Origin: Styela clava | Lineage: Eukaryota; Chordata; Ascidiacea; Stolidobranchia; Styelidae | DNA length: 64,000 nt | Reading direction: 5' to 3' | Assembly: GCF_964204865.1 (NCBI RefSeq) | Contig: NC_135252.1 | Coordinates: 14,467,383 to 14,531,382, forward strand | In this document: piece after piece, positions 4,892 through 48,688 of the stretch | Position numbering within the stretch: the first letter of the stretch is position 1 | Layout: every line of letters starts with the position of its first letter | The notes under the pieces: generated by a model | Told to the model about the DNA's origin: nothing | Database searches by the model: none | Seen by the model: only the letters and a program-made list of their open reading frames with translations | Position numbers and translations under genes: made by a program

Positions 4892-7800
4892 TCATTTGGA
4901 ATATTTTTGTTTGATTTTGTTACAAAATTCTTCTTCCATATCCATCCAATCTCTTACAGCCTCCTCAGTTGAACGGCTTTTAAAATTAGGAAGAAGTTTT
5001 CTAGAAAAAAATAGGAAACGTTATTTTATTTTAGAACATTTGTTTAACCGTTCAAGGTTAACTCATATACGTCCATTTCATAGTAGTAAGAAAATTAAAA
5101 AAAGACTTTTCCAAATGCTATAAAAAAAATCCTAAATTATACCACGAAGACCGACATTGTGTGAAGAAAAACACATATGCATATCTGTTATCGGTTGTCA
5201 TTAAAGACCATCGTATCTGAAAAAAGAAACTCCAATATTTCGATATTGATGCAGTTGTCAATTTTCAAGAGCAACAATTTTTCTTCAAGAAGTTGTTCCA
5301 TCAATTTTGTGGAAAAGGCAAAATATATTGAAGAAGACTAATTTTATGGAATAATTATGTTTCTGAAACCCCATAATGGAGTAAAGTGGACGCAACACTT
5401 TTCGCGATACCAATCAACAATAGTATATCTACATAAACAACTTGAAACACTCTCTGGTAATCGAGAGAATGGAAAACATTAAAAAAACTTAGAACATACT
5501 TTCTCTTGTCAGACGACATGGCAGAGTATTCAGGTTGATATTTGTTTCTTTCTCTTGTTTTTATTAAGTTGGGATCGAAACCCATAACAACTGTGACCTT
5601 TTGGAAATAGTCGAGTAAAGACCCAATTTCGTCTCCACACCCATGAATTATTCCCTTTGCGTCATTCTTTATCAATTCTATGACAATTTTGGCCAAATCT
5701 TTTACGTATGTTGGTGATCGTGTCTGCAAAGAAATAAAGTTTTAAAATAATATTACTCAAGGCACGAAAGAGGGTTTTTGGTGGTTTTTCACTGTTTTTG
5801 CAAGATTTTTTTTTTGGTGGTTTTTCACGGGTTTAGAAATAAACTCATACAAACTGTGAACAAGCAACGGTTATGGAATAAAATCAGTTGAAATTATACA
5901 TTTTTAAAATAACGGAGGGTTGATTTTGAGACAGATTCACTAGTGAGCAACTGGAAAATTTTGAGAATATAAATGTTATTCCGAATCGTAATGGGGCAAA
6001 GACGATTATTCTAAATTCTAAAACATTCACAAATTGTAATCGGACTGTATCAATATTTCAATGTGGGATATTTCATGTTGGCCTCAAATTTCAGGATAAT
6101 AGTTATTAATCCACGGCAAGTTATTCCATGCATTGTCATTGAAACCCTTGAATTATGTAATGACGGCAATATTAAAGCAAGTAAATAGGATTTTTATGTT
6201 AAAAAATCCCTTGCAATGGCACCACTTTATTGAGGAGTTCAATGACATGAAAAATTACTACTGTCAACACGAAAAAATAAATTTTGGTGTCATCTGCTAT
6301 CACATGGAGAAGTGGATCACTTTCAGGAAATTTGAATTTCTAGTTAAATAATGACGTTATCAGCAACAGAATAAACAAGAGTTGGCTCGAATAAACGGAG
6401 ATATATATTAGACCCTTGTGACACAAAGTAATTTCACAATGAGATTTTTAATTCTAAACGTTTTCTCAAAAATATAGGATTTGGATTCAATGAACAGAAG
6501 TATTATGACCCAGCTGCTCAATGTTTTTTAGTGTTGATAATCTTTATACAAATTTTGATCGTTTGCCTTTCTCATCGGTCACCGCAGTAGAACCTTGTTA
6601 AACCATGGAGCAATATCATAGACAAGGGGTGTGCAGCCTTTAATACAGGAGGGCCAGATACAAATAACTTTGTAAAACCGCGGGCCGCATATTTTTTCAG
6701 CATAGGCTTTCTGTTAGTTTCGGCTACAAAATTTTGGTTATTGATCTTGTGACATGCGTTGTTCGCTTCGCACAAGCTAGCTGTTAGGGCATTGTGACGT
6801 CATAGACGTGGATAATAAATTGGACTCCGGTATAGGCTTTGCAACTCGAAGAGATTGGAATCACTTGAACGTATCAGATTAAGCTAAATTGAAAACTCGT
6901 TTTGCGGGCTGAACATCATTCAAAATTGGCACTTCTTCACGGACCGCACAATTTTTTTACTTGCGGGCCGCAGGCTGCACACCCCTGTTGTTGACCGTTG
7001 CATATTGATAAAACCTTGTCAATTTTAGAATTAAGGTACCTCATCAAATTTGTCCTGGTACCAATATTTGTTATTTAAATTAGGCTCGATATGTGGCAAA
7101 GAAAAATTATTTACCGCTTCTGGAACAAAGAATTCTTTTCCACTCATTAGATATTCATACAAGGTATAGAAAGCGCCAAACTGTCGGTGATCTTTCCCGT
7201 TTACCGTCGTTGTTCTTACAATCAATGCATCACCGTTAGTGGCATCAATGATTTGCTTTTCCATTTCATATTTATTTTTACCGTATGCAGAAAAAGGGTT
7301 CGCAACATCTGCTTCGTTGTAGGGACCATCTTTAATACCTATTAAGCAAATTTCAGTTTTTTTTGTCAGTGATGTCGGCTCTACATGAAAATAAATGCAA
7401 CCATATGAAAAATTCGTGTTTTTCTCATTTATCAGAATTGGTAAGTATAACAATAGCTTATTTGCGTAGAAGTAGTTTGTCTATTAAAGTTCAATTATTG
7501 GTGAAATAGCAAGCTCATTCTTAGCAGCCAGTACAATGATCCAGGTTGTTATCTTCATATGTATATATCATACCTCTTTTGCCATCGAAAACATAGTCAG
7601 TAGAAATGGCTACAACTTTGATTCCTCTTCTTTTTGCACATTTGGCTATGTTTACTGGCCCTTTGATCATAACTTCAGCGGATTTATCAGGTTCAATATC
7701 GCACTGACCCACGTTTGTCCACGATCCACATATTATAACCACTTGAGGGCAGCAAATATCTAGTACATCGTCGGCGTGATCCTGATCCCTGGGATGTCAA

Positions 7801-8736
7801 AGAAAAAATTCTAATTGCAAAAGCTAATAACATATTGAAGACATGGTTTGATTGTCTGAAGTTCTGAACTACATCGTTTTACTCCCTATTTATGAATTTG
7901 ATAAAGTCTGTAAGCACTTATTCTATCGCAGGCATACAGGGTGAGCCATTGCTGACTCGGCTCCATCAAAATCAGTCACACTCTTGACTGTACAGGTAAA
8001 GTCAGTTTTTACTTACATAAAAACACGTCAAGTAAAACATGTGTATAAATTCAAACTCTAAATCCCCCCATTTGGATCTGCTGCCCCTTATACAGCGTGC
8101 TGCAGGGGAGGATGCCCCCGTGGCCCTCACCGGTATGCATGACATACCACCAAAATTTTGACATTTTTAGTTTAAATATGCATAGAAACTATTTAAAATT
8201 TGAACGCCATTATAGCGGTTTTCTACTTTTTCCCTTTATTTGCTTGTTTCGAATATTCATTTTGACGAGCATACCTAAATTGATGATGAAACTTTTAAAT
8301 TAAAATGTAATTGGACTCGCCATGTAATTTAGAACAACTTTACGTACTTTCCAGCTAGTTCCAAGTCGTACTTCATAGAACCTTTAGATACTCTGTGTTC
8401 AAAGTGTGTTTTCAATGTAATCATGTCTTCACAATTCTCATCAACATATGAACATATGGCACTTCCAACTGTAAAATATATAAGTTTGTTTTATCCCTGA
8501 TATGCTGAGATTGAGCATTTTGAACTATATTTCGCCTAAAATCAGAAACAAGGCTAACGAGCTTAAAATTATTTTAAAACGATTAATCTGTTAATAACTA
8601 ATTAAAATGGGTCTCAAACTGGGCTCAAAGTCAACTTGAGATTTAAAATGAGGAAAGTTGCGAGAGCAATGGCCACAAAGACCTTGTCAACGTATTTTTT
8701 GGGAAATTTAACTTAGCCCTACAGATTTTTGTTAGG

Positions 8737-8770
<34 letters not shown>

Positions 8771-10678
8771 CTATTTCAAACCAAACTTCGTTCAATGCAG
8801 TCAATGAGAATGTTGCTCACGTTTTCCTGAGGCTCCGATAACCAGGATCCGTTTTCTATTTGATTTAAATTTAATTGGATCAAGTTGCAAATCTACTGCC
8901 TTTGCATCCTTTTCTGAAATTATGACGTCATCGCATGTTGGTAGCTGAATGCAGAGAACAGGGTCTTTCCACGATATTGTCCTATCAGACACTGGGTTGA
9001 ATGTACCACCCTGTTCAAATTTTGCATGAATAAATATTAGGTTTTAGATTCTTCATTTTCATTTGCAGTGGCATGTTCAATTTATAAAGTTTTTTGGTGC
9101 TCCCGAAGTATGCGAACCAAGATGGCGGACATCGGAACGTAACATGGGTAACAGGTTAGGGTTAGGCGATAATTTTTTTCCAATTTTCCTTATTTTAGTC
9201 CTATTATCAGCTCGAAGACTAGCCAAGAGCCTCCCGTAGTATTTATACCTAAAATTATGGCCTAACCCTAACCTAGTGCACATATTACATTCCGATGTCC
9301 GCCATCTTGGTTCGCATACTTCGGGAGCCCCAGTTTTTTTTTCAAGCAAATCACCTGAGCATACACCATAATAGAATTGTCTTTAGTTGCATAGAATGCA
9401 TGAGCACATCCTGCGGGTACAAATACTTGCTTATGGTTTTCAGCCGTCAGTCTTACTCGAACCCATCTGAAAAAATATAGGGCACATTCCCATCAGAAAT
9501 TCCAAATTTTTGAGGTTAGACAATCAAAAATAAAGAGGCGCAATTATTGAGCTTCCAGTAGTATCAAATATTGTTTCAAGTCAAGTAGGCACTTTTGAAC
9601 TGCCTGAGGATAAATTTTCACAAGCAAAAAAAACATCCTTCTCCAATACACGAATAGCATAGCCGATAAGCCGATATCGGCTTTTTTCACTGCATGATTA
9701 AACGCCCTTTAGAATGTAGCAGATTGCAACGTTGCTGAGATTGCAACGTCATCTGTTGCGTATAAATGTTTTATGTTCTCACTACAGCACAGTGTAAACG
9801 TGCGTTATAAATTAAAATAGTATTACTCCGTGCCCTAATTGTAATTACATGAACTCGAAACAGGCAAATCCGGTCATCCGCATCTACAATTTTACATTGA
9901 TATTCATTTCTGCTTTTTCGCCTTATGACTATAAGCCGTCATAGGAATTTGTAGGAGTAAAAAATTGAACTTTTACTTTAGAAATATGCAAAGGAGTAAA
10001 TGAGAGCATAAAGGTTTACGTTATGACATAATATACATTTTTTCCTGTTAACCAAAATCAATCGGTATCACCACTATAATGCTATAAGTTTGTTAAAAGC
10101 CGTCGACAAAGGGCTGTCGAACATATTTGTTTGAGGTACATTTACGCTCTCTCTCTCTTAAGACTACTTTGGGACGGCACTCACTTCAAATACGTAGAAG
10201 AGTCTTCGCGGACATCAGCAATGATATCGTAAACTTCTCCAGATACACACGTTACAAGCTTGTAGTACGGTGAACAATGTAGACCTGTAGATAAAACAAT
10301 TTTAAATGATCCTGCAGAGTAGTATTACAAACAATAAAACAAAGATTTAAGATTGGACAGAGGATTTAATCAGCAGTAGGAGCAATGGAGCTGAACGAGT
10401 ATACGTATATTTTGGAAATAAAAAATATTTTGTAATGTGGATGAGGAACAAAAAAAACGATCTAGGAAAGATAACACAAAGAAAATGGTAGCACCTCTGA
10501 AAACATTTGCATGTGAGTGCGAGGTCGATAATTGTTGTATTTTTGTAATGGGAATCTCTTCAGGGTACTTTGTCACGTTGTATAGTTCTTCGAAATAACC
10601 TCGGTGATCTTTATATTGTGGGAATTCGATAACATAAGCGCCTTCCACGAATAATGGAGTAACTTTGATTTGAGACAT
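4892..10678 (-). CDS. Bifunctional nucleotide 4-keto-rhamnose 3,5-epimerase / 4-keto reductase (RmlC-RmlD fusion)
   Basis: Nine exons (transcript order): 10678-10495, 10284-10185, 9466-9355, 9010-8821, 8468-8348, 7788-7574, 7338-7040, 5723-5500, 5000-4892. All junctions are GT-AG, phases join without a stop, and the product is 517 residues. Residues 1 to about 175 are an RmlC-type cupin epimerase: DHRGYFEELYN, the RGLHC box with the catalytic-type His at residue 64, KLVTCVSGEVYDIIADVRED, and PAGCAHAFY. A linker leads to an extended SDR reductase: Rossmann motif GASGKLG (191-197), STDYVFDG, and the active-site YxxxK (Tyr326, Lys330). Together these convert a 4-keto-6-deoxyglucose nucleotide to the L-rhamnose nucleotide, presumably in the cytosol. 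No dehydratase is present here. Whether the carrier is dTDP or UDP cannot be read. The start is the first ATG, at 10678. The short C-terminal exon 9 is chosen on phase and coding look. Confidence 0.88.
6624..6987. mobile_element. hAT-type MITE in intron 7 of the rhamnose gene
   Basis: 364 bp bounded by inverted AGGGGTGTGCAGCC termini. The left terminus carries a changed first base; the right end reads GGCTGCACACCCCTG. Subterminal GGCCCGCGG-like tracts (near 6678 and 6963) are typical of this hAT end type. The candidate 8-bp duplications (TCATAGAC, TTGTTGAC) agree at only 5 of 8 positions, so insertion is old or the edge is slightly off. It is non-coding. Confidence 0.65.
8741..8768. repeat. 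(AT)n microsatellite
   Basis: Uninterrupted AT dinucleotide run of about 28 bp in intron 4 of the rhamnose gene. Confidence 0.9.
9096..9331. mobile_element. Foldback MITE with GGTGCTCCCGAAGTATG termini in intron 3 of the rhamnose gene
   Basis: 236-bp element with nearly perfect inverted arms of about 38 bp (left GGTGCTCCCGAAGTATGCG, right end the complement of GGGGCTCCCGAAGTATGCG). It is flanked by a perfect 8-bp target duplication AGTTTTTT (9088-9095 and 9332-9339). The inner part carries telomere-like TTAGGG/CCCTAA stretches at about 9154-9166 and 9261-9275, also in inverted orientation. It is non-coding. A smaller relative lies at 44066-44163. Confidence 0.85.
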
Positions 10679-10757
10679 CCTAACAGTATCCCTGTTGACT
10701 AGCAAAATATATCAGATGAAAAAAATAATTTATAAATTTAGTAAGAAAATTATGTTC

Positions 10758-15006: not shown

Positions 15007-15014
15007 CTACTAAC

Positions 15015-18000
15015 CAGTGGCGTCGCGTCAATAGAGCCAAACGGCAATGCCCCGGTTGTTTTTTCGGTATAATAAAAAATATTCGAAAAATTCCTCAATA
15101 TCGGTTGCACAGACTGTCTACACTAGCCATATTCTCCCGACATGGTTCATTTTTCGCTCGCAAAGCCTTCGCCAAACGTCGACGGGGCGACGCCGATTTT
15201 GCCCCGGTTGCTCATTGTATATCGTATTCTCTCTTTTATCTTCCACTCGCCGCGTTTGTCTCGTTTGTTTTCTGTTTCTTTTACTAAATCATCGGGGCCG
15301 ATCGGGGCTAGCCCCGAAATTATGACGACACAATGCCGACGTTTCTTACAACAACGTGTTGACATATTCACGCATTCCTTCTCGTTCGTTGGTTGCTTGA
15401 AGAGTTGATAGTTTCCTCGCCTTCGTTTTTGTCGCTTGTTTCGCTATTTGAATCAGTTAGAGACCTTTAGTCCATTTGCTTTCGATTTTCCACATTCCTT
15501 TTGAGCTCCTCACTTCTTTCCGGCTTCGCATTTCTTAGCCTTAGACCTCATAATGAATAAGGTTAATGCACTACTTCGCAATCCGTTTTCGCAGCTGCCG
15601 CTGGAACAAAAATTAGAGGTACAACGTCTTGGGCCTTATCAACCAAAAATTTGTTCACTGGAACAATCCCATGACGCAGGAAAGCGTCGGCGTACATTCT
15701 GCGCAGAAACTTGGTATAAAAACACGAATGGTTGTGTTACAGCGAGGACAAAAATGCACTTTTTTGTTTTTATTGCCTACTTTTTGCTACCGCCCGTGAC
15801 TCACGTTGGTTTTAGAGATCTTAAACATCTTTCCGAGCGTGCCAGGGATCATCAATCTTCTATGGAGCATCTGGACAATGCAGTAAAATACCGAACATTC
15901 GGAAGGGTTAATATTGCAGCACAGTTGGATGAAGGACGCGCGGTTTCTATTCGTCGGCACAACCAAAACGTCGAGAAAAACCGCCATGTTCTCGGTCGAT
16001 TGATAGATGTTTTGAAGTTCATTGGTTGTCACTAGCTGTCCCTCCGTGGGCACGATGAACGGGCTGGCTCTTCTAATAGAGGGGTATTTTTGGATATGGT
16101 GGAATACACCGCATCCCTAGATACAGTATTGAGAGATCATCTTGATGCCGCAACTGTTTCGAAAGGGACATCTAAGGATATCCAAAATGATTTGCTCGAC
16201 TCAATGTATAAAATTTATTTACAACATTTGGCTCTGTAAATTGAGAATTGCCAGTTCCTTTCGATTCAGTCTGACGAGACAACTGACATCACGTGCGTTT
16301 CCCAACTGGCTGTGATTTTTCGGTTTGTGAAAGATGGTAAACCTACCAAGAGATTTCACAGCTTTGTACCAATCGTTGATCGCACGGCTTGCGGGATATC
16401 GGCTGTACTGAAAGAAGTGTTACAGCCTTACAACGCGAAGTCAAAATTGATAGCTCAAACTTATGACGGTGCGGCAGTCATGAGTGAGTCGAAAGATGGT
16501 GTTCAAGTTTATATAAAAGAAGATATTCCTCATGCGCATTTTTTACATTGTTATGCACACCAATTTAACCTCGTTATTAAAAATATGTGTCTTGATACCC
16601 ATCTCGTCCGTATATTTTTTGCAAATGTTTCGGGGTTTTCTTCATTTTTTTCCGTTTCGCCGGAGCGCTCTGACCTCCTTCGCCAGATATGTAGCCGCCA
16701 TCTCCCAGCTTGTGCGCCAACACGTTGGAACTTCCAATCACGCGTGGTACAGGGCGTGTCCGAAATTAGGTCTGAGCTCATTGAGTGTTTCAATGGCATT
16801 CAGAGCTCTCCGGTTTGGGACGAACGCTCTGTGAGGGAGGCGGCAGGTCTAAAGCGTCTGCTAGAAGATGGTGAGTTTTCATTTTTTCTCGCTTTTTTCT
16901 CCACAATATTCTATCACGTGGATGTATTATACGGCGCATTGCAGTCAAGGCTAATGGATGGAGCGTCTGTGCAGTCGTGTATTTCAGACCTCTGCGATGC
17001 TGTATCTCGTATCCGGGAAACAATAAAATACGACGACACATGGAGTGCTTCTTTACGCCGCGGGCAAACAACGCAGCGTTTGATTTTGTCTGCAAAGGAA
17101 TGCTGCGACATTCTGGTGAATCACATAGGCGATCGTCTGCGCACTGAACACCTTGCCGCGTTCTCTTTGATGAACCCCAAAAATTTTTCAAAATTTGCAC
17201 GTCAATTTCCCATCCATTTTTTGGCTACTGTCTCCAAATTTAACCCCATGATAAACGCGTAAATTGGAAAATGAATTGCGATGTATATACACCAATCAAA
17301 CTTTTTTGAACATCACATCAACTTGCGCGCTCTATGGGTTCCTCATATATGGGTTCCTCGTATAACACTCTAGTAACTACCTTTGGGGCGTCTGCAAAAT
17401 TTCTGGACATCATTTTGACGACGCCTATTTCTTCCGCCGACGCAGAGCGAACATTCAGCACGCTGAAACGTATTAAAACGTATCTCAGAAACACAATGAA
17501 GCAAGATAGATTAAATTCCTTAGCTGTTTTATCCATTCACATAGACGTTATTTCTGGGATGCATGACTTTAATCAGCGCGTTATTGAGCATTTTGCTTCC
17601 AAGAAACCGCGGCGTGTTGCATATATGTTCAAGCAGTAGAAGTCCAGCAGCATATATATCTATGAGTGAGCGACGCATGTCCTTATCTTTGCATTAACTT
17701 TCCTTTCTTCATAGTAACGTTTTAAACCTTATTTTAGGTTTTGTCTGCTTTCCCGAAGTTTCTGTTAATATGTCATTGTATTTATCTGGGTAAATATTGC
17801 CTTTCCTTTTGAAAGAGGTTTCAAAATAAACTATGTCTATATTTATTAATCCCTTGACTTGGACCGGTTTTAAAGACACTCTCTTATCGTTAAAAATTGT
17901 CGCTTTTGCCGATTGGTTGTTACCGATGGAATGGTTTTTATACTCATAAAATGATGGGAGAACTTAAAGCGCTCATCCTGTCCCCGTAGATGGGGGTGAC

Positions 18001-18053
18001 TTGGTCCCGCAGTAGCTTGCCCCGGTTGTCAAAATGACCACGCGCTGCCACTG
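15015..18053 (+). mobile_element. Full-length hAT transposon with broken transposase gene
   Basis: 3039 bp from CAGTGGCGTCGCGT (15015) to the complement of CAGTGGCAGCGCGT (ending 18053), with a perfect 8-bp target duplication CTACTAAC at 15007-15014 and 18054-18061. The transposase runs in the plus direction from about 15553 to 17639. The last roughly 400 bp (from about 17652) is also present at the left end of the two following 3.7-kb tandem units, ending at 21776 and 25499, so the element inserted before the tandem duplication. Confidence 0.95.
15553..17639 (+). pseudogene. hAT transposase (ZMYM1-like, DUF4371 type), disrupted
   Basis: Starting at ATG 15553 the frame reads an N-terminal HLSERARDHQSSMEHL block. 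This is followed by HNQNVEKNRHVLGRLIDVLK, LSLRGHDE, SIQSDETTD, YDGAAVMS and HCYAHQFNLV, the usual order in ZMYM1-like hAT transposases. The C-terminal dimerisation block SSADAERTFSTLKRIKTYLR lies near 17430-17490. It is broken by in-frame stops at 16033-16035 (TAG) and 16237-16239 (TAA), and by frame changes near 17260 and again near 17330-17390. A 15-bp tandem duplication (MGSSY encoded twice, 17334-17363) sits at the second break. No active enzyme is expected. Confidence 0.9.
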
Positions 18054-19244
18054 CTACTAACTATCATAACAGTACCATAATGGGTACTCTGAGCTCCGTT
18101 ATTATTGCTGCCAGTTTTCGCTTATGTCGAAGCAAACAGATCAATTCTCAATTACCCATTGCTTGTATTGTATTGTGACTTTCATTGTTATCGGTGTCTA
18201 GCAACTCGGTTAAGCAAAGTCAAGGAGCAGCATATTTGTAGTTTTTTCACTGTAGTCTGACTCTTCCACACGGAGTCTATGGCTCGAATCTTCGACATAC
18301 TATTTATTCATTGTATTCGGCATGCATATCTTCTTTTTTCGCAACATTTGCTTTTCGTAGTGTCAGATTTTCGATATTTATACGATTATATAGGCGCAGT
18401 AGATTAATATTGAGATAAATAACTGTTTATCCATTTCTTATCCAAAGTTTATACTAATTATGATTTTCTTGTATTATTTACATCCGTTATAACACAGATG
18501 AGTCCCAAACATAATTCATGTGAGCCTAATTGGCTGTCCAGTCAATCTCTGTCGTTAAGTACTGCAATTTCGTGCTTTTTTAAGTGACTAATTTAAATTT
18601 TTGTTTTTACTTATTATAAATATTCTGAGAACCACTTGAATGCCAATATATATCCTTTTACTGCCCACTTGTCATACTTGTTGATATATCTTTTCTCCTC
18701 ACATTATACACTTCATAATTACGAGCCCAAATGCGATTTAAACAATTAGCACATGATCATTCTGCCCTACATACAATATCCTGAGCTCAAAAATTGATTT
18801 CTGTTTTGGTAACGCATTCCAGCATATTCATGTATTATCTCCAAAGTACACAAAGTAATATTCTGCTAATAAAAATGAGAAACTCACTCAATGGTACACT
18901 AAAATTGTTCATCCCCTATGTGGCCTAACGTTTTCATCGAAATAAGTTCTGTGACCCAAATTTCAGGCATGAATTGTCCCTATGACTATTAATTTAACTT
19001 TCCAACATGTAATTCCGTAGCGTTCTAATGACGGCAATTGCGAATTTAGTGAAATTAGCAAACAAAAGTTTATTATTTTATTAACCGGGTACTTTATTAC
19101 AGAAAAGCATGTCTTTGAAAATACATTTTTAAATTGTAAAACAACATGTATTGTCGTTGTGTGTAACCGGAGTAGACTTCAATCATCTCTGAATAAACAT
19201 AAATGCATCCAATTCAATCTTGTGTAATCTCAAATGACTAAATG
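18054..19244. other. 3' flanking DNA of the g1 cassette, no gene seen
   Basis: The sequence between the hAT and exon 6 is repeated in all three units. On the minus strand, AATAAA-type signals (TTTATT on plus, near 19068-19085) lie about 160-180 nt downstream of the exon 6 stop codon and could be the polyadenylation signal of each cassette. Confidence 0.5.
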
Positions 19245-21193
19245 TTATTCTTCGCTCTCGCCTTCTCTAGTAATTGTAACAGTAACATCACCGGCAGAAA
19301 ACCAGTTGGAAGTGCCATCTTCTGATTGTAGGTAATCTATGCTAAAGCTCACCTGTAAAAAACAAATTTCGAGATATGAAATTGTACATGAATGAGGTCA
19401 TTATTTATGAAGTCATATTTCTTATTTACCCATCCGGTAGTTACACACAAAAACTCGTTGTGAATCGAGCGCGTCTTTCGGTGTAAATTTTTATATTGCT
19501 GATTACTTACATTTATATCCAAATAAAAACAAAAAATTGAAATGTAATTTTTTTTAATTTTGTTACGCCAAAGAAGATCTCAAACCATTGGGATTGAGTC
19601 CTAAAAATCGAATGAGTGAGTGAAAATAAAATATATCATTTTGAACCTATGTGGGCACGCATTATTATTCTTTTTCGTTCTACGAACATCATACAAATAT
19701 TGAGTTATGTATTTGCTCAAACCTCTTTCATATCATCGACTCCCTCAGCATTTTGAAATCCACTCAAGGTGAACGTAGTTGAGTCGGAAGAAGTGACGGT
19801 ATATCTGCTGTCCATTGTTGTAAACTGGATTGATAAATATAGCTATGTTATATATTGTATTTTGAGAAGATCGTGTACGATCGAAAGTTATACAGAATAG
19901 TGGGTGTTCGTTAGTTCAATAGAATATGCTATGAATTAATTTATTGATATGACATATCACTGAATGAAACCAAATTTGATGATTTAATTTTCTGTCTGAT
20001 TGGTATTTTTAAAACCTGCATTTGTGCAACACAATATCATTTTTTTATTTTCATCATATCATCGTTTTACACTAATAACCGTGAATTATATTCCTAATTC
20101 TTCGATTCTGAATCTTTAATAAAGAATATATATGTGCATTCTGCGCCGGAATAATACTAGGGTATGACTACAAATACATTGGTTGGTAAAAAAGTAATAT
20201 ACTCCAAATGATAAAAAAAAAATAAAAAATAAAATTATTACGTCACAGTAACATATCAGCGAAATCGTTGATAGTAACATGCTGATATTAGATACATAAA
20301 TTAAATACTTACATTGAATCTAGCGACTGCAACTGGGAACGTAACGGTCAAGACATCTCCTTCGTGAAATCCATTTGTGTAGTATACATTAGAACTCGCT
20401 TCCTTCACCAAGTTATTTTGTGGGAAAGAATAGACGCTTACTGAAAAAGTGACGGTTTGACACATTGGTGATAAAAAAAAATAAAATTTTTTTTATACAG
20501 TGACAGCGAAGGAAGAGATTAAAAACGAGTTCCGAGTATTTAAAGAAATATGTGCTCATAAGACAATGTAATACTGAATATTAAAAAAATCTTCACAAAC
20601 TTCTTTTTTTGCGTTCGATACGTACGTATTTCGGTAAACTTTTCATTAATCTATCGTTTTGCAAAATTGCAGAATCCCATTACAAATTCGAATTACAGAA
20701 TTGCAAATTCAAAAATATCAATCCCAACTAAATTGATTTTTACAGATCTCTCAAATATCTGCTATGTTAATGTATTTTGGGCGGCCTAATATTAAAATAA
20801 TAATTTGAAATTTCAAAATGAACAAATTAAAACAGCTTATTAACAAATTCCAACGCAATGTAAAGAAAGTTTAATTGTAGAAAATTGAATTTATGGAAAC
20901 GAGTTCATTACGATTTAAAAAGATTGCTTATATTAATATACTTGAATAATGTTATAAACTCGCAATGAGTAAGAAAGAATACACTTCCATATAATTTCCA
21001 AAAACAACGTACTTTCTTCCACATCAGTTGGGTCACATGTAAATTGTATATCAGTCAAATTGAATATTTCGTCTCTGTTGAACATTATTAAAACATTGAA
21101 TGTGCTGTTTGCAGCTTCCCAGCCGGCTGGTGCTGAAATCTTATAACGACCTTCCACAGGACTAGAATCTCCATTGATGTGGCCATTCATTAC
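19245..21193 (-). CDS. Headless exon 3-6 cassette of g1 (tandem copy 1)
   Basis: Exons in transcript order: 21193-21013 (exon 3), 20440-20313 (exon 4), 19824-19723 (exon 5), 19352-19245 (exon 6, stop TAA). Lengths are 181/128/102/108 nt, as in tandem copy 3, with intact splice sites and no stops. No signal-peptide exon or exon 2 precedes it within the unit; the nearest are 7.7 kb upstream at 28867-29197. Exon 3 encodes LTDIQFTCDP where copy 3 and all other paralogues have IVF. It is either an unexpressed leftover of the duplication or an alternative 3' cassette that exon 2 could splice to in phase 0. Confidence 0.7.
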
Positions 21194-21374
21194 CTGTGAA
21201 ATGTGATTTATGAAATAGGTGAAATGACGAATGAAGGAAACAAATGAAACGTAATCGTGAATTTCTGGAGTTCGAATTCATTCCCTAACACCCTATGGAA
21301 AAATTTATATAACGACTGTGTGATACGTGGTGTTACGTAGTATGAAAACTTGGTTCAAATGTTCAAAATAATAT

Positions 21375-24300
21375 ATATATATCTATGAGTGAGCGACGCA
21401 TGTCCTTATCTTTGCATTAACTTTCCTTTCTTCATAGTAACGTTTTAAACCTTATTTTAGGTTTTGTCTGCTTTCCCGAAGTTTCTGTTAATATGTCATT
21501 GTATTTATCTGGGTAAATATTGCCTTTCCTTTTGAAAGAGGTTTCAAAATAAACTATGTCTATATTTATTAATCCCTTGACTTGGACCGGTTTTAAAGAC
21601 ACTCTCTTATCGTTAAAAATTGTCGCTTTTGCCGATTGGTTGTTACCGATGGAATGGTTTTTATACTCATAAAATGATGGGAGAACTTAAAGCGCTCATC
21701 CTGTCCCCGTAGATGGGGGTGACTTGGTCCCGCAGTAGCTTGCCCCGGTTGTCAAAATGACCACGCGCCGCCACTGCTACTAACTATCATAACAGTACCA
21801 TAATGGGTACTCTGAGCTCCGTTATTATTGCTGCCAGTTTTCGCTTATGTCGAAGCAAACAGATCAATTCTCAATTACCCATTGCTTGTATTGTATTGTG
21901 ACTTTCATTGTTATCGGTGTCTAGCAACTCGGTTAAGCAAAGTCAAGGAGCAGCATATTTGTAGTTTTTTCACTGTAGTCTGACTCTTCCACACGGAGTC
22001 TATGGCTCGAATCTTCGACATACTATTTATTCATTGTATTCGGCATGCATATCTTCTTTTTTCGCAACATTTGCTTTTCGTAGTGTCAGATTTTCGATAT
22101 TTATACGATTATATAGGCGCAGTAGATTAATATTGAGATAAATAACTGTTTATCCATTTCTTATCCAAAGTTTATACTAATTATGATTTTCTTGTATTAT
22201 TTACATCCGTTATAACACAGATGAGTCCCAAACATAATTCATGTGAGCCTAATTGGCTGTCCAGTCAATCTCTGTCGTTAAGTACTGCAATTTCGTGCTT
22301 TTTTAAGTGACTAATTTAAATTTTTGTTTTTACTTATTATAAATATTCTGAGAACCACTTGAATGCCAATATATATCCTTTTACTGCCCACTTGTCATAC
22401 TTGTTGATATATCTTTTCTCCTCACATTATACACTTCATAATTACGAGCCCAAATGCGATTTAAACAATTAGCACATGATCATTCTGCCCTACATACAAT
22501 ATCCTGAGCTCAAAAATTGATTTCTGTTTTGGTAACGCATTCCAGCATATTCATGTATTATCTCCAAAGTACACAAAGTAATATTCTGCTAATAAAAATG
22601 AGAAACTCACTCAATGGTACACTAAAATTGTTCATCCCCTATGTGGCCTAACGTTTTCATCGAAATAAATTCTGTGACCCAAATTTCAGGCATGAATTGT
22701 CCCTATGACTATTAATTTAACTTTCCAACATGTAATTCCGTAGCGTTCTAATGACGGCAATTGCGAATTTAGTGAAATTAGCAAACAAAAGTTTATTATT
22801 TTATTAACCGGGTACTTTATTACAGAAAAGCATGTCTTTGAAAATACATTTTTAAATTGTAAAACAACATGTATTGTCGTTGTGTGTAACCAGAGTAGAC
22901 TTCAATCATCTCTGAATAAACATAAATGCATCCAATTCAATCTTGTGTAATCTCAAATGACTAAATGTTATTCTTCGCTCTCGCCTTCTCTAGTAATTGT
23001 AACAGTAACATCACCGGCAGAAAACCAGTTGGAAGTGCCATCTTCTGATTGTAGGTAATCTATGCTAAAGCTCACCTGTAAAAAACAAATTTCGAGATAT
23101 GAAATTGTACATGAATGAGGTCATTATTTATGAAGTCATATTTCTTATTTACCCATCCGGTAGTTACACACAAAAACTCGTTGTGAATCGAGCGCGTCTT
23201 TCGGTGTAAATTTTTATATTGCTGATTACTTACATTTATATCCAAATAAAAACAAAAAATTGAAATGTAATTTTTTTTAATTTTGTTACGCCAAAGAAGA
23301 TCTCAAACCATTGGGATTGAGTCCTAAAAATCGAATGAGTGAGTGAAAATAAAATATATCATTTTGAACCTATGTGGGCACGCATTATTATTCTTTTTCG
23401 TTCTACGAACATCATACAAATATTGAGTTATGTATTTGCTCAAACCTCTTTCATATCATCGACTCCCTCAGCATTTTGAAATCCACTCAAGGTGAACGTA
23501 GTTGAGTCGGAAGAAGTGACGGTATATCTGCTGTCCATTGTTGTAAACTGGATTGATAAATATAGCTATGTTATATATTGTATTTTGAGAAGATCGTGTA
23601 CGATCGAAAGTTATACAGAATAGTGGGTGTTCGTTAGTTCAATAGAATATGCTATGAATTAATTTATTGATATGACATATCACTGAATGAAACCAAATTT
23701 GATGATTTAATTTTCTGTCTGATTGGTATTTTTAAAACCTGCATTTGTGCAACACAATATCATTTTTTTATTTTCATCATATCATCGTTTTACACTAATA
23801 ACCGTGAATTATATTCCTAATTCTTCGATTCTGAATCTTTAATAAAGAATATATATGTGCATTCTGCGCCGGAATAATACTAGGGTATGACTACAAATAC
23901 ATTGGTTGGTAAAAAAGTAATATACTCCAAATGATAAAAAAAAAATAAAAAAAAAAATTATTACGTCACAGTAACATATCAGCGAAATCGTTGATAGTAA
24001 CATGCTGATATTAGATACATAAATTAAATACTTACATTGAATCTAGCGACTGCAACTGGGAACGTAACGGTCAAGACATCTCCTTCGTGAAATCCATTTG
24101 TGTAGTATACATTAGAACTCGCTTCCTTCACCAAGTTATTTTGTGGGAAAGAATAGACGCTTACTGAAAAAGTGACGGTTTGACACATTGGTGATAAAAA
24201 AAAATAAAATTTTTTTTATACAGTGACAGCGAAGGAAGAGATTAAAAACGAGTTCCGAGTATTTAAAGAAATATGTGCTCATAAGACAATGTAATACTGA

Positions 24301-25097
24301 ATATTAAAAAAATCTTCACAAACTTCTTTTTTTGCGTTCGATACGTACGTATTTCGGTAAACTTTTCATTAATCTATCGTTTTGCAAAATTGCAGAATCC
24401 CATTACAAATTCGAATTACAGAATTGCAAATTCAAAAATATCAATCCCAACTAAATTGATTTTTACAGATCTCTCAAATATCTGCTATGTTAATGTATTT
24501 TGGGCGGCCTAATATTAAAATAATAATTTGAAATTTCAAAATGAACAAATTAAAACAGCTTATTAACAAATTCCAACGCAATGTAAAGAAAGTTTAATTG
24601 TAGAAAATTGAATTTATGGAAACGAGTTCATTACGATTTAAAAAGATTGCTTATATTAATATACTTGAATAATGTTATAAACTCGCAATGAGTAAGAAAG
24701 AATACACTTCCATATAATTTCCAAAAACAACGTACTTTCTTCCACATCAGTTGGGTCACATGTAAATTGTATATCAGTCAAATTGAATATTTCGTCTCTG
24801 TTGAACATTATTAAAACATTGAATGTGCTGTTTGCAGCTTCCCAGCCGGCTGGTGCTGAAATCTTATAACGACCTTCCACAGGACTAGAATCTCCATTGA
24901 TGTGGCCATTCATTACCTGTGAAATGTGATTTATGAAATAGGTGAAATGACGAATGAAGGAAACAAATGAAACGTAATCGTGAATTTCTGGAGTTCGAAT
25001 TCATTCCCTAACACCCTATGGAAAAATTTATATAACGACTGTGTGATACGTGGTGTTACGTAGTATGAAAACTTGGTTCAAATGTTCAAAATAATAT
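21375..25097. repeat. Tandem 3723-bp unit 2 (hybrid unit)
   Basis: Middle direct unit. Its left part shares variants with unit 3 (GCGCCGCC near the TIR, AAATTCTGTG, A at 22892). Its right part shares about twenty variants with unit 1 (for example TTCTTATTT at 23143, GGTGATAAAA near 24190 and the exon 3 IQF codon). The switch lies between 22892 and about 23145. Confidence 0.95.
22968..24916 (-). CDS. Headless exon 3-6 cassette of g1 (tandem copy 2)
   Basis: Exons in transcript order: 24916-24736, 24163-24036, 23547-23446, 23075-22968. All splice sites and frames are intact, and the coding sequence is the same as copy 1 as far as I can read (including IQF in exon 3). It again lacks exons 1-2. 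The upstream ATATAT run and truncated intron 2 at its 5' side are joined directly to the hAT tail of unit 3, so any transcript would have to come from the g1 promoter about 5 kb upstream or from a cryptic start. Confidence 0.7.
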
Positions 25098-28000
25098 ATA
25101 TATATCTATGAGTGAGCGACGCATGTCCTTATCTTTGCATTAACTTTCCTTTCTTCATAGTAACGTTTTAAACCTTATTTTAGGTTTTGTCTGCTTTCCC
25201 GAAGTTTCTGTTAATATGTCATTGTATTTATCTGGGTAAATATTGCCTTTCCTTTTGAAAGAGGTTTCAAAATAAACTATGTCTATATTTATTAATCCCT
25301 TGACTTGGACCGGTTTTAAAGACACTCTCTTATCGTTAAAAATTGTCGCTTTTGCCGATTGGTTGTTACCGATGGAATGGTTTTTATACTCATAAAATGA
25401 TGGGAGAACTTAAAGCGCTCATCCTGTCCCCGTAGATGGGGGTGACTTGGTCCCGCAGTAGCTTGCCCCGGTTGTCAAAATGACCACGCGCCGCCACTGC
25501 TACTAACTATCATAACAGTACCATAATGGGTACTCTGAGCTCCGTTATTATTGCTGCCAGTTTTCGCTTATGTCGAAGCAAACAGATCAATTCTCAATTA
25601 CCCATTGCTTGTATTGTATTGTGACTTTCATTGTTATCGGTGTCTAGCAACTCGGTTAAGCAAAGTCAAGGAGCAGCATATTTGTAGTTTTTTCACTGTA
25701 GTCTGACTCTTCCACACGGAGTCTATGGCTCGAATCTTCGACATACTATTTATTCATTGTATTCGGCATGCATATCTTCTTTTTTCGCAACATTTGCTTT
25801 TCGTAGTGTCAGATTTTCGATATTTATACGATTATATAGGCGCAGTAGATTAATATTGAGATAAATAACTGTTTATCCATTTCTTATCCAAAGTTTATAC
25901 TAATTATGATTTTCTTGTATTATTTACATCCGTTATAACACAGATGAGTCCCAAACATAATTCATGTGAGCCTAATTGGCTGTCCAGTCAATCTCTGTCG
26001 TTAAGTACTGCAATTTCGTGCTTTTTTAAGTGACTAATTTAAATTTTTGTTTTTACTTATTATAAATATTCTGAGAACCACTTGAATGCCAATATATATC
26101 CTTTTACTGCCCACTTGTCATACTTGTTGATATATCTTTTCTCCTCACATTATACACTTCATAATTACGAGCCCAAATGCGATTTAAACAATTAGCACAT
26201 GATCATTCTGCCCTACATACAATATCCTGAGCTCAAAAATTGATTTCTGTTTTGGTAACGCATTCCAGCATATTCATGTATTATCTCCAAAGTACACAAA
26301 GTAATATTCTGCTAATAAAAATGAGAAACTCACTCAATGGTACACTAAAATTGTTCATCCCCTATGTGGCCTAACGTTTTCATCGAAATAAATTCTGTGA
26401 CCCAAATTTCAGGCATGAATTGTCCCTATGACTATTAATTTAACTTTCCAACATGTAATTCCGTAGCGTTCTAATGACGGCAATTGCGAATTTAGTGAAA
26501 TTAGCAAACAAAAGTTTATTATTTTATTAACCGGGTACTTTATTACAGAAAAGCATGTCTTTGAAAATACATTTTTAAATTGTAAAACAACATGTATTGT
26601 CGTTGTGTGTAACCAGAGTAGACTTCAATCATCTCTGAATAAACATAAATGCATCCAATTCAATCTTGTGTAATCTCAAATGACTAAATGTTATTCTTCG
26701 CTCTCGCCTTCTCTAGTAATTGTAACAGTAACATCACCGGCAGAAAACCAGTTGGAAGTGCCATCTTCTGATTGTAGGTAATCTATGCTAAAGCTCACCT
26801 GTAAAAAACAAATTTCGAGATATGAAATTGTACATGAATGAGGTCATTATTTATGAAGTCATATTTCTCTTTTACCCATCCGGTAGTTACACACAAAAAC
26901 TCGTTGTGAATCGAGCGCGTCTTTCGGTGTAAATTTTTATATTGCTGATTACTTACATTTATATCCAAATAAAAACAAAAAATTGAAATGTAATTTTTTA
27001 TAATTTTGTTACGCCAAAGAAGATCTCAAACCATTGGGATTGAGTCCTAAAAATCGAATGAGTGAGTGAAAATAAAATATATCATTTTGAACCTATGTGG
27101 GCACGCATTATTATTCTTTTTCGTTCTACGAACATCATACAAATATTGAGTTATGTATTTGCTCAAACCTCTTTCATATCATCGACTCCCTCAGCATTTT
27201 GAAATCCACTCAAGGTGAACGTAGTTGAGTCGGAAGAAGTGACGGTATATCTGCTGTCCATTGTTGTAAACTGGATTGATAAATATAGCTATGTTATATA
27301 TTGTATTTTGAGAAGATCGTGTACGATCGAAAGTTATACAGAATAGTGGGTGTTCGTTAGTTCAATAGAATATGCTATGAATTAATTTATTGATATGACA
27401 TATCACTGAATGAAACCAAATTTGATGATTTAATTTTCTGTCTGATTGGTATTTTTAAAACCTGCATTTGTGCAACACAATATCATTTTTTTATTTTCAT
27501 CATATCATCGTTTTACACTAATAACCGTGAATTATATTCCTAATTCTTCGATTCTGAATCTTTAATAAAGAATATATATGTGCATTCTGCGCCGGAATAA
27601 TACTAGGGTATGACTACAAATACATTGGTTGGTAAAAAAGTAATATACTCCAAATGATAAAAAAAAAATAAAAAATAAAATTATTACGTCACAGTAACAT
27701 ATCAGCGAAATCGTTGATAGTAACATGCTGATATTAGATACATAAATTAAATACTTACATTGAATCTAGCGACTGCAACTGGGAACGTAACGGTCAAGAC
27801 ATCTCCTTCGTGAAATCCATTTGTGTAGTATACATTAGAACTCGCTTCCTTCACCAAGTTATTTTGTGGGAAAGAATAGACGCTTACTGAAAAAGTGACG
27901 GTTTGACACATTGGTAATCAAAAAAAAGATAATTTTTATATAGTGACAGCGAAGGAAGAGATTAAAAACGAGTTCCGAGTATTTAAAGAAATATGTGCTC

Positions 28001-28825
28001 ATAAAACAATGTAATACTGAAGATTAAAAAAATCTTCACAAACTTCTTTTTTTGCGTTCGATACGTACGTATTTTGGTAAACTTTTCATTAATCTATCGT
28101 TTTGCAAAATTGCAGAATCCCATTACAAATTCGAATTACAGAATTGCAAATTCAAAAATATCAATCCCAACTGAATTAATTTTTACAGATTTCTCAAATA
28201 TCTGCTATTTTAATGTATTTTGGGCGGCCTAATATTAAAATAATAATTTGAAATTTCAAAATGAACAAATTAAAACAGCTTATTAACAAATTCCAACGCA
28301 ATGTAAAGAAAGTTTAATTGTAGAAAATTGGATTTATGGAAACGAGTTCATTACGATTTAAAAAGATTGCTTATATTAATATACTTGAATAATGTTATAA
28401 ACTCGCAATGAGTAAGAAAGAATACACTTTCATATAATTTCCAAATACAACGTACTTTCTTCCACATCAGTTGGGTCACATGTAAATACTATATCTGTCA
28501 AATTGAATATTTCGTCTCTGTTGAACATTATTAAAACATTGAATGTGCTGTTTGCAGCTTCCCAGCCGGCTGGTGCTGAAATCTTATAACGACCTTCCAC
28601 AGGACTAGAATCTCCATTGATGTGGCCATTCATTACCTGTGAAATGTGATTTATGAAATAGGTGAAATGACGAATGAAGGAAACAAAGGAAACGTAATCG
28701 TGAATTTCTGGAGTTCGAATTCATTCCCTAACACCCTATGGAAAAATTTATATAACGACTGTGTGATACGTGGTGTTACGTAGTATGAAAACTTGGTTCA
28801 AATGTTCAAAGTAATATATATATAT
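25098..28825. repeat. Tandem 3.72-kb unit 3 (contiguous with g1 exons 1-2)
   Basis: Right-most unit. Its right edge is the ATATATATAT run at about 28813-28825 in intron 2 of g1, where single-copy sequence resumes (GTCGAGATTC). It starts with the hAT tail (TIR end at 25499) and contains exons 6-3 of the complete g1 gene. Confidence 0.95.
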
Positions 28826-29197
28826 GTCGAGATTCAAATTTTTATTTATATAGAAAGCATACTGACATGGAACATGTTGACTGCTTCTGGCAAGTTTACA
28901 ATGCAGCTTCCATCCTCCAATCCTTCGTATACCAAGCTTACGATAGCTCCAGCAAGCGAGTGATCGTTCTGCGGCCACTCGGTGTTAACAAGCACTATAA
29001 TGAAAATCATATGTTCAAAAAAATCAATTGTTATTTTATTGAGCGTTTCCCAATAAAGACAAAATTGGTTGAACAAATAGAATTAAATATATCAATGCTA
29101 TCGAATATTTTTCTATACCTGAAACTCCCTCTGATTCCTCCTCTTGTGCAAATGCAGATCCCAACAATAGAAATGTAGCTATTACTATAAATTTCAT
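26691..29197 (-). CDS. g1: secreted two-module protein, 241 residues, unrecognised family
   Basis: Exons in transcript order: 29197-29119 (signal peptide), 28994-28867, 28636-28456, 27886-27759, 27270-27169, 26798-26691. Lengths are 79/128/181/128/102/108. Exon 2 uses donor GTCAGT and exon 5 donor GTTTGA, both weak but fixed by the paralogues' exon lengths. The product starts MKFIVIATFLLLGSAFAQ, a clear signal peptide, then an acidic EEESEG stretch. Two related halves follow (exons 2-3 and 4-6), and it ends in GESEE. Two cysteines (GSC in exon 2, FTCD in exon 3) could pair; the third cysteine of g2-g5 (STICY) is absent. It is the most diverged member of the cluster. Upstream, a probable 5'UTR exon ends at a GT donor near 29879. 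Function unknown; exported. Confidence 0.82.
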
Positions 29198-31622: not shown

Positions 31623-33845
31623 TCAAACAATGATAATTTCGCTGTCGGCAGCTTTAGTGATTGTGACAGTGATATCACCAGCGGAAAACCATCTGTCGAC
31701 TCCATCTTCCATGTCATACACAAGGTGGAAAGACACCTGAAAATATCACAAAGCTTGTTACAGGGTAGGTGTAATGAATTGGTCAACTTACTTAGCAAGT
31801 AACGTATTTCCCTTCATATATTTGTTATAAGAGAGAGAGGGAGAGAATTTATTGCTTTTGTCAAACCAGAAAATGAACATACGTATAAACAAAATAAGGA
31901 TTCGAAGTTTACGATATTTGACTACGACACTACGTGGTAACAGACACGACCGATGAGGTCATCAGAGTCCGGGTTGTATTCAATTTAATATTGTTTGTGA
32001 GTTTAATTTCATAAATATGAATCTTTATTCCAATAATGAGAATACGTTTGTTCAATAATACGTTCGATCATTACACTTGTTAGAAAAATAAATACATGGT
32101 GTGCTTCCGATAGAATGCAATTAAAATGTTTCCCGAGTCTACTTACCTCAGTGTTGTTGTCGTTTCCGATTGGAGAATAGAATCCTGTCAAGGTGTAGGT
32201 GATGTTATCTTCAGTTGTGAGTTCGTAATTGCTGTTCCAAGTTGTTATCTGTAAAATTTAAATTTAAATTAAATTAACATGACATAAACGAATTAATGTT
32301 TTTACGAGGTAATGAATTCTATATATCTTAAAAACTTGGACCTATCAACTCTTTCGATATCACAGTCAACCGAGTACAAATGCCACACTTTCATGAGGAT
32401 ACAGTATATCTGTAAAGTAAATGTATATAGGCAACATTTCAAGAGTTTGCAGGTTGGGTGCCAATCAGTGATATTTTTATTTTATTTTGAACTTGTTATA
32501 GTATGTTTAGTACAGTAGAGTACCTCTTCATATATGCAAGAAATTCTTCATGGACCATGCATTTGCGTATCAGTGATTTGAACATGCAAGGTATGCAATC
32601 ACGAGATATAAAGCGACTCACTCAAATATCGCTAGGTTTTGTTTTTAATCGTAGTCCATTGATTGCTATAGACGTATTTTTCTCCATTAGTCAGTTAATT
32701 AAACATCAGCAAATCGAATACCTATTGTCGGATAAAATAACTTGAGTGCCAAACAGTCTTTGAAAAACTTACGTTAAATTCTCTGACTCGAACTGGGAAA
32801 GTGATTGTCAGAACATCTCCGACGTGGAAAGCTCTTCTGTAGCAAATTGTTGAGCTAGCTTCTCCCATCAAGTTGTTTTGGGGGAAGGAGTAAACGTTGA
32901 CTGTAATAAAGGAACATAATTTTATTCTGCTGCAATTAAGTTCAATTGTTCATCAAAAAAATAAGGATTTAGTAATTCATATTTTATTCGTTCCGTATTA
33001 AGCTTTTTATCCTGATACAAAATATCTAAAAATCTTGCTATCTGTGACAGTCATCGAGAGTCTTTAAAAGATATGATGTTGCCTACGAATAATAACACAC
33101 TACAGTACTTACTGTCGGAAATTGCAAGAGGATCGCAAGCGAATACAATGTCTTCCAGAGCGAAAGCTGATCCACGGTCAAACAAGATGAGAACTTTGAA
33201 TGTGCCGTTGACCAAACTCCAGTGGGTTGGTGCACTGATCGTGTAAAGACCTTCAACTGGGCTGCTGCTCTCAGGGACGATGAATCCGTTCATAACCTAA
33301 TATCATAAGAATCATTTTTACTAGCAGACAACGTGAAACACATAACATTTTGATACTTATGCTGTTTATTTCATACTTTAGAATGCATTTTACAACTCAA
33401 GAATACCGATGTGTAGTTAGAAAAGTATACCATGATATTCCAACTAGCAATGATCAACTTACGTGGAAAAGATTGACCATAGCCGGTAATACAACTTGAC
33501 ACGATCCATTTCCAACGTTTTCATACACAAAATCTACTATAGCTCCACCGAGGGCGTGGTCATTTTCAGGCCATGTGAGAGCTGTTTCGTCTAAAAAGAT
33601 AAAAATACGATATATATTATATGATTACGCAATAAAAGAAATTTAGACAATGTACTTACTAGTGTATTTCGTGGTCACAAAACGAATGCTATTACTACTA
33701 TAGGAAAAATTAGTATTTTAAAGCTAACTTGGACACTTTCGGTCTCATCAGACTGTATGTCGAATCATATTAAATACTCACGGCTCACGATTTGTCCAGA
33801 AACTAATCCAAGAAAAGCAATGGCGATGAATATGGTGATCTTCAT
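31623..33845 (-). CDS. g2: secreted two-module protein, 239 residues
   Basis: Exons in transcript order: 33845-33782, 33590-33463, 33296-33113, 32900-32773, 32248-32147, 31736-31623 (64/128/184/128/102/114 nt), all GT-AG with consistent phases (1,0,1,0,0). Signal peptide MKITIFIAIAFLGLVSG, then QIVSH. Half 1 (exons 2-3) contains WPENDHALGGAIVDFVYE, NGSC and YTISAPTHW. Half 2 (exons 4-6) contains YSFPQNN, STICYRR, LTITFPVRVREFN, TTWNSNYEL and DRWFSAGD. There are three cysteines and several N-glycosylation sequons (NGS, NGT, NIT, NNT), in keeping with an extracellular protein. A non-coding exon (about 34154 upward) and TATA box precede it. Gene and 5' flank are directly repeated as g3. Function unknown. 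Confidence 0.9.
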
Positions 33846-38240: not shown

Positions 38241-39592
38241 TTAGACAATGATCACTTCACTGTCGGTTGCTTTTGTGATTGAGACGGTGATGTCACCAGC
38301 GGAAAACCATCTATCGACTCCATCTTCCATGTCGTAGACAAGGTGGAATGAAACCTAGAATGACAATTAGGTAAAGTGAGTTACTAGGATTTCAAAAACA
38401 CATCACGTTTTGGGTGTTGTGTTTAAAGATATTTTAAAAGTATTTTGTTCTATATTTATACCTCTACTCAATCTAGACTTTCTCATTGAATGAAGGCTAT
38501 AAACACTAACCTCGGTATTGAAATCATTTCCAATAGGAGCTTGAAATCCGGTCAAAGTGTATGTGATGTTGTCTTCGGTTGTAAGTTCGTAGTTGGAGTT
38601 CCAGGTGGTGACCTGTAAACAATAAACCAAATTAGTTTATTGAAGAAAGTGCTCAATAAACGTAAATTTGTGCCAAGTTCACAATTAAATTTTAAACAAA
38701 TATTCTGCAACTCACATTGAATTCTCTGACTCGGACTGGGAAAGTGATTGTCAAAACATCTCCGACGTGGAAAGCTCTTCTGTAGCAAATTGTTGAGCTA
38801 GCTTCTCCCATCAAGTTGTTTTGGGGGAAAGAGTAAACGTTGACTAGAAAAATATTGGAACAGTATTTATATTATACAAATCCTGATAATCCGATGCTAT
38901 TTATTTATCTTCATTGTGACATTAAAACAATTCTTTACATTTTATCTTAAATCTACAGACAAACTTACTGTCAGAAATTGCAAGAGGATCACAAGCAAAT
39001 ACAATGTCTTCCAGAGCAAAAGCTGATCCACGGTCAAACAAGATGAGAACTTTGAATGTGCCGTTGACTAAACTCCAGTGGGTTGGTGCACTGATCGTGT
39101 AAAGACCTTCAACGGGGCTGCTGCTCTCAGGGACGATAAATCCATTCACAACCTGAAGCGAAAAACGTTTAAATATTGCGTTCTTGGAACACGATGCATT
39201 TCTAAAGTTTATCTAACTATGTATATATATTTATATACAAATTTTCATCTTAATAATTTCATTTAATACTCAAATATTACTCACGTGAAAAAGGTTGACC
39301 ATAGACGGGAGTGAAACTTGACACGATCCATTGCCGATTTCTTCATAGACAAAATCCACGATTGCTCCCCCAAGTGTGTGGTCATTTTCAGGCCATGTGA
39401 GAGCATTCTCGTCTGTAAAAAAAATGGAGTTTGTTCAGTTTAGAATATTCACTCAGTTCTATTGTACGCATCTTAATAGCGTCGATAGAGGAAAGTTAGT
39501 AATGCACAATGTTCGATAAAATACTCACGTCTTACAATTTGTCCATTGACAATTCCAGCGAATACAATTGCGATAAAGATGGCGAACTTCAT
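38241..39592 (-). CDS. g3: secreted two-module protein, 239 residues
   Basis: Exons in transcript order: 39592-39529, 39412-39285, 39152-38969, 38843-38716, 38612-38511, 38354-38241; same lengths as g2, stop TAA. Signal peptide MKFAIFIAIVFAGIVNG, then QIVRH. It encodes NDHTLGGAIVDFVYEEIG, NGSCQVSLPSMVNLFH, SAPTHWSLVNGTFKVLILFD, NNLMGEASSTICYRR and the DRWFSAGDITVSITKAADS tail. It is nearly identical to g4 and g5 and clearly closer to them than to g2. It lies head-to-head with g4 across the 39.6-49.0 kb inverted repeat. A 5'UTR exon (about 39850-39769) splices to 39605. Function unknown; presumed extracellular. Confidence 0.92.
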
Positions 39593-45660: not shown

Positions 45661-45799
45661 TTCCATAACCATAACCAATCAACAACAATGATGTAACAAT
45701 TGCAATTTCTGCAGCCGTTCAGACACCTTTGTCCTCCAGGCAGATATTCAAGTATGGTTGTAAAGTAAACATTGCCTCGTTTTTGTACATTTGGAATTT

Positions 45800-46260
45800 G
45801 TTTGTGGTCTGGCGAGGTTGGGTGGTACATATTGATTTTTCTTCTCATCTGGTGCATTGCGCCTTTCACGTACATATAACTTAGGCCTACACTGTGGGAA
45901 GCGCTGCTGAGCTTGTTGCCTTTTGACTTGACGCGGCATTTAGTTTTTGCGGTATATTGAAGGAACGCCTTCTTATGCTCGACGGTGTAGCGCATCGTGC
46001 TAAGGCTGGGCGTTAGGAATACGCTCGTCACCACAACTCTGATTACCCTGCGTGGGTGCGCAGGTTCGAATCCCATGCGGGGATAATTATGTGCACTCTT
46101 CGCCGCCGTAGGGTGGTTCACGTACCTGGAAAAGGGGAACTGGCTAACTAATTCCAGACCCGGCATGGAGTGGTAACCGGACGAGAGGCCGTGGTTCGTC
46201 ATATGATTAAGCCATCCAATCGGCTTTCTACTCTCCCGGGATCAGGATGTAAAACCTATT
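45800..46260 (+). repeat. Dispersed repeat R1 with tRNA-like SINE core (g4 arm)
   Basis: Contains an A-box-like TAGCGCATCGT at 45988 and a perfect B box GGTTCGAATCC at 46063-46073. Spacing suits a tRNA with a long variable arm. The surrounding sequence (GCGGTATATTGAAGGAACGCC before, CTTCGCCGCCGTAGGGTGG after) recurs in the other copies. I read it as a tRNA-derived SINE-like repeat rather than a working tRNA gene. Confidence 0.65.
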
Positions 46261-48433: not shown

Positions 48434-48680
48434 TAAACATACAGGTCAATACTAAATGAAACTCCATATTATGATATACGTTTTATTATCTCCTGTTTAT
48501 CCATCAACCGCGAAAGAAGTTTACTGCGGTTTACTGGCACTCTTAAAAACACACCCGTCGCAATCAACTCATAAAATCATCAAAACAAACTGTAAACATC
48601 TCTGAAATTATATTTATGCTTGGTATAGATAGGAGTCCATACCGCTCATGCAGAATTCTAAGGTTGTAAATTTCGACCAG

Positions 48681-48688
48681 TATAAATA
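48681..48688 (+). promoter_or_regulatory. TATA box of g4
   Basis: TATAAATA, 315 bp before the start codon. It is followed by CCGAAGTCATCAG near the expected start site and a 5'UTR exon ending at donor 48795. The 5'UTR intron ends at TTCAG 48982, 13 nt before the ATG. Confidence 0.8.

Follow-up and report, generated by a model that had tools for sequence, protein, structure and literature searches.

The window analyzed here, the whole 64,000-nucleotide stretch of Styela clava DNA, contains a minus-strand gene (g1) whose first two coding exons occur once and whose last four occur three times. Is this a working array of alternative terminal exons served by one shared start, or a partial-gene duplication whose far copies are silent? 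An initial annotation had read the locus as a 3.7-kb unit, consisting of a hAT transposon tail plus g1 exons 3 to 6, repeated three times behind a single signal peptide exon.

Structure of the tandem array

A repeat search detected three direct copies at a spacing of 3723 and 3723 bp, as had been claimed, and a lag comparison set the unit limits listed in Table 1. Each unit contains the last 402 bp of the hAT element, 1.2 kb of flanking sequence, and g1 coding exons 6 to 3, in keeping with the proposed capture of a 3′ half-gene. The three-unit alignment has 3723 columns, of which 30 are variable. U1 and U2 differ in 4 of the 3723 columns, U3 differs from either by <1%, and U3 is 3 bp shorter than the other two. 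A chance repeat is ruled out by 3.7 kb at over 99% identity. The partial-gene tandem triplication is real, recent, well preserved, and of a known kind. Three is the copy number as assembled, and there is less certainty about the exact number (2, 3, or 4) than about the occurrence of a duplication.

Table 1. Features of the array, the adjoining hAT element, and the g1 to g5 genes (positions within the window)
Feature	Position	Strand	Remarks
hAT DNA transposon, broken transposase frame	15015-18053	+	Target site duplication, terminal repeats, domain match
hAT breakpoint sequence, ATATATAT	17652-17659		
Unit U1	17652-21374	-	402 bp of hAT tail, 3′ flank, g1 coding exons 6 to 3, part of intron 2
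Unit U2	21375-25097	-	Content as U1; hAT tail only, from the equivalent of 17652 onward
Unit U3	25098-28817	-	Adjoins exons 1 and 2; diverged patch at 27916-28496
AT run in intron 2	28814-28825		Positions 28818-28825, its last 8 bp, are shared with the hAT breakpoint
g1 coding exon 1	29119-29197	-	Single copy; signal peptide-like start (judged by eye)
g1 coding exon 2	28867-28994	-	Single copy; next intron phase 0
g1 exon 3	28456-28636 (U3); 24736-24916 (U2); 21013-21193 (U1)	-	
g1 exon 4	27759-27886 (U3); 24036-24163 (U2); 20313-20440 (U1)	-	
g1 exon 5	27169-27270 (U3); 23446-23547 (U2); 19723-19824 (U1)	-	
g1 exon 6, including stop	26691-26798 (U3)	-	AATAAA at 26544, 26528, and 26520
g2	31623-33845	-	Six coding exons
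g3	38241-39592	-	Six coding exons
g4	48996-50323	+	Six coding exons
g5	58553-59876	+	Six coding exons

Exons 1 and 2 were each found once, and exons 3 to 6 have GT/AG borders and an unchanged frame in every unit, so that the description of single upstream exons and intact downstream ones stands for gene models built on splice signals and agreement among paralogues. The exon 6 stop codon is also present in U2 and U1, because it contains no variable column. Intron 2 is in phase 0 and its acceptor is retained in every unit; with exons 3 to 6 in frame, each cassette is splice-compatible with exon 2, as had been argued. The exon with the signal peptide-like start is single, but its rank as exon 1 has to be amended to first coding exon, given that an acceptor-like sequence (TTTTTAG) ends 6 nt upstream of the g1 ATG. 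Since similar acceptor-like sequences end 13 nt upstream of the ATGs of g2 and g3, a non-coding exon probably lies upstream of g1 coding exon 1.

The hAT element

The element at the left edge of the array is a hAT transposon. It is flanked by an 8-bp target duplication (CTACTAAC, at 15007 to 15014 and 18054 to 18061), has terminal inverted repeats that share CAGTGGC and agree in 12 of their first 14 bases, and encodes the C-terminal dimerization domain (Dimer_Tnp_hAT, PF05699; E value, 1.7e-10; 41 bits against a cut-off of 21.4) in the open reading frame (ORF) at 17310 to 17639. A further match, to DUF4371 (E value, 0.00084), was below its cut-off. The transposase frame is broken by stops into ORFs at 15505 to 16035, 16240 to 17262, and 17310 to 17639. 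The right hAT end and the right target duplication are present in all three units, while the hAT body and the left target duplication occur once, joined to U1 only; thus, the insertion preceded the duplication. At alignment column 395, the base of U2 and U3 matches the other end of the hAT element, and U1 is therefore probably the changed copy.

Breakpoints and junctions

The left unit edge lies within the hAT element, 12 bp past the transposase stop (17637 to 17639), and the right edge falls in the AT run of intron 2; both breakpoints are where the initial annotation had placed them. The U1/U2 and U2/U3 junctions are identical fusions of intron 2 to the hAT interior. Since both carry the same sequence, the simplest account is a single junction origin followed by copying. 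The two junction parents have the 8 bp of ATATATAT in common, which is the short AT homology that had been proposed, and no bases were added at the head-to-tail join, as in microhomology-mediated tandem duplication. Of 200,000 breakpoint pairs placed at random no more than 2 kb from the respective edges, a proportion of 0.0002 had 8 bp or more in common.

We also considered movement of the cassette by the hAT transposase, which the initial annotation had not invoked. The 8 bp shared at the unit edges are as long as a hAT target duplication, yet one of the two copies lies inside the element. We rejected this route: the break is internal to the element, and no hAT end adjoins the match.

A diverged patch in U3

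Threefold repetition held up, but uniformity of the units did not. Columns 1 to 2818 of the alignment contain 7 variable columns (3 private to U1, 1 to U2, and 3 to U3), and with so few, spread over three units, the duplication appears to be recent. Columns 2819 to 3402 contain 18 substitutions and one 3-bp gap, with U1 and U2 identical and U3 different throughout. The remaining 321 bp add 2 further differences of the same pattern. Divergence is thus ~3% in the 584-bp patch versus 0.1 to 0.2% in the 2818 bp before it, and the patch edges are sharp. Counting neighboring changes once, 18 of the 22 U3-private events fall within the 584 bp; none of 20,000 uniform shuffles placed 18 events in any window of this size, a width picked after seeing the data. 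This clustering suggests that the side bearing exons 1 and 2 underwent a single exchange with, or conversion by, a different allele.

Predicted output of the cassettes

U1 and U2 encode identical residues, and U3 differs from them at residue 119 only, where it has V and they have Q (V119Q; two bases); the third coding change is silent. The codon 119 bases lie at 28488 to 28489 in U3, 24768 to 24769 in U2, and 21045 to 21046 in U1, and a base at 19169, 76 nt past the U1 stop, sets U1 apart from U2 and U3. V is also found at this residue in g2 and g3 and at the matching position in g4 and g5. Each cassette has its own stop, followed ~145 to 175 nt beyond by three AATAAA motifs (motif matches only; others occur in g1 introns and farther downstream), and a transcript from the g1 start should therefore end in U3. 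The proximal cassette, U3, is likely to be the only one used by default, and U2 and U1 are likely to be two silent 3′ fragments with neither promoter nor signal peptide. Their use would be expected to need read-through and skipping of U3, with introns of ~3.95 and ~7.67 kb. Alternative cassette use is mechanically possible, as judged from the acceptor retained in every unit; functional cassette switching is possible but is not indicated by the sequence.

The g1 to g5 cluster and its surroundings

The g1 to g5 proteins have ~240 residues and a signal peptide-like start. No match above cut-off came from a Pfam scan of g1 and g3 (two of the five genes), in which the best E value was 0.069. Against PDB, g3 matched two chains at an E value of ~0.3, neither convincing, and a g1-to-g3 profile matched nothing up to an E value of 10. 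Searches for related loci yielded 85 pattern matches in viral contigs and 29 in genome contigs, none of which was confirmed, a result that says little on a eukaryotic family because the sequences searched were viral and bacterial or archaeal.

Two tail-only copies show that 3′ fragments arise in this cluster and that at least one has decayed. The copy at 54333 to 54811 (minus strand) is inverted, consists of exons 5 and 6 and the 3′ region, and is interrupted by two stops in exon 6, in line with silent U2 and U1 fragments. A counterpoint is the partner copy near 63400 to 64000, also inverted and cut by the window end, which shows no stop in the 30 exon 6 residues visible.

The synonymous difference between g2 and g3 is 0.18 in exons 3 and 4, compared with 0.51 in exons 1 and 2 and 0.63 in exons 5 and 6 (Fisher P = 4e-7, from rounded sites); exons 3 and 4 contain one non-synonymous change. 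Alignment of introns 1, 2, 3, and 5 of these genes does not exceed that of shuffled sequences, and for intron 4 the excess is marginal (11 of 200 shuffles were as good). The low-difference stretch spans the exon 3/4 join and may reflect conversion from a spliced (cDNA) template, which would give this pattern; alternatively, each exon may have been converted on its own, or constraint may be strong.

A second, larger tandem duplication (45786 to 54423 and 55898 to 64000; offset, ~9.6 to 10.1 kb) carries g4 and g5 with their flanks and aligns in three pieces at 94 to 96% identity. On the minus strand at 5355 to 10711, five ORFs match dTDP-4-dehydrorhamnose 3,5-epimerase (PF00908) and RmlD (PF04321), and three of them exceed the Pfam cut-off; the order of the five resembles that of exons from dTDP-rhamnose pathway genes. 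The window contains no Rfam match at the gathering threshold and no tRNAs.

Discussion

We consider it probable that the array arose by microhomology-mediated tandem duplication, followed by unequal exchange and by the acquisition of an allelic patch in U3, and that g1 is served by exons 1 and 2 plus U3 while U2 and U1 are silent. The hAT element would have inserted ~1.2 kb beyond the g1 stop codon, after which a break or replication template switch would have joined intron 2 to the hAT interior at ATATATAT; the joined structure is observed, and the mechanism is our reading of it. The product would have been a head-to-tail duplication of the hAT tail and coding exons 3 to 6. The count of three may then go back to unequal exchange between the copies, and the distinct promoter-side end of U3 may stem from exchange with, or conversion by, a second allele. 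The gene would still work through exons 1 and 2 plus U3, with the poly(A) signals of U3 ending the transcript. The intact exons, splice sites, and frames of U1 and U2 are a counterpoint to their silence, but one of little weight at so low a divergence.

The low divergence itself can be read otherwise. The duplication could be old, its units having been homogenized by gene conversion everywhere but in the diverged patch; this reading would share the origin of the units with the account above and differ on age. The abrupt start and stop of the patch and the identity of U1 and U2 through it fit such a history, as does the converted appearance of exons 3 and 4 of g2 and g3 in the same cluster; it would, however, require that almost the whole 2818 bp preceding the patch had been converted in each unit. 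One allelic exchange event or tract would be simpler, and we hold the older age to be rather unlikely. The same near identity, in a unit that exceeds short-read length, is what haplotype or read-joining errors around a single true copy might leave. Such an assembly artifact is unlikely, in that the hAT/intron 2 fusion occurs twice, precisely at the shared 8 bp, every unit has private changes, and the window contains no Ns; misjoined haplotypes would also be expected to duplicate the flanks.

A working array, in which each exon 3 copy could serve as the splice partner of exon 2, as reported for Drosophila pip or PGRP-LC, seems quite improbable to us. The phase 0 intron, the acceptors, and the frames are intact in all units, and this architecture is among those described for flies in the relevant sections of a published report (PMC9013439). 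Against it stand the stop and AATAAA motifs of each cassette and the near absence of any difference between the isoforms that would result. Furthermore, intron 2 of U3, the sole intron folded, is not unusual in its folding (z = -0.5; equaled by 59 of 200 shuffles). Very doubtful, in our estimate, is the intermediate idea of a pip-like terminal cassette array in the making, in which hAT/intron microhomology left one promoter with three 3′ half-genes downstream, all compatible in splicing, the cassettes have not yet diverged, and occasional read-through already yields U2 and U1 transcripts.

What the locus signifies depends on the far cassettes. If they are transcribed, the array would be a very young example of the origin of a terminal exon array, in which the parents, the junction, and the transposon can all still be read. 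If they are silent, the case is a clean but unremarkable partial-gene duplication in tandem; it also cautions that exon copies lying past a poly(A) site may have no function even when they are splice-compatible.

Microhomology-mediated tandem duplications of the MMBIR/FoSTeS type leave head-to-tail copies with a clean junction and a short shared sequence. The g1 array has the same features and nothing that distinguishes it from them; the repair route is not readable from sequence. Among gene families, the sections of PMC9013439 on Drosophila pip (eight clusters), PGRP-LC, and CG42235 describe common upstream exons followed by homologous clusters of terminal exons or variable 3′ regions, which are reported to be chosen mutually exclusively and are discussed there mainly as UTR duplications. 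Relative to those descriptions, g1 likewise has homologous terminal exon groups in tandem behind shared 5′ exons; unlike them, its cassettes are coding, nearly identical rather than specifying different products, and known from sequence alone, so that use and diversity of the pip type are not matched so far. For Drosophila hydra, the same source describes recurrent duplication of initial exons, seven of them flanked by DINE-1 (PMC9013439). The duplicated units of g1 also include transposon sequence, but from a hAT element, and they carry 3′ exons without a known promoter, whereas those of hydra, as described there, are initial exons, some with their own start sites. The chelicerate sDscam genes, in the account given in part of PMC4835542, have 5′ cassettes of several exons that arose when a portion of the gene was duplicated in tandem, and a promoter of their own generally lies upstream of these. 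The cassettes of g1 likewise comprise several exons and derive from tandem duplication of a gene portion, but they are 3′ cassettes without a known promoter.
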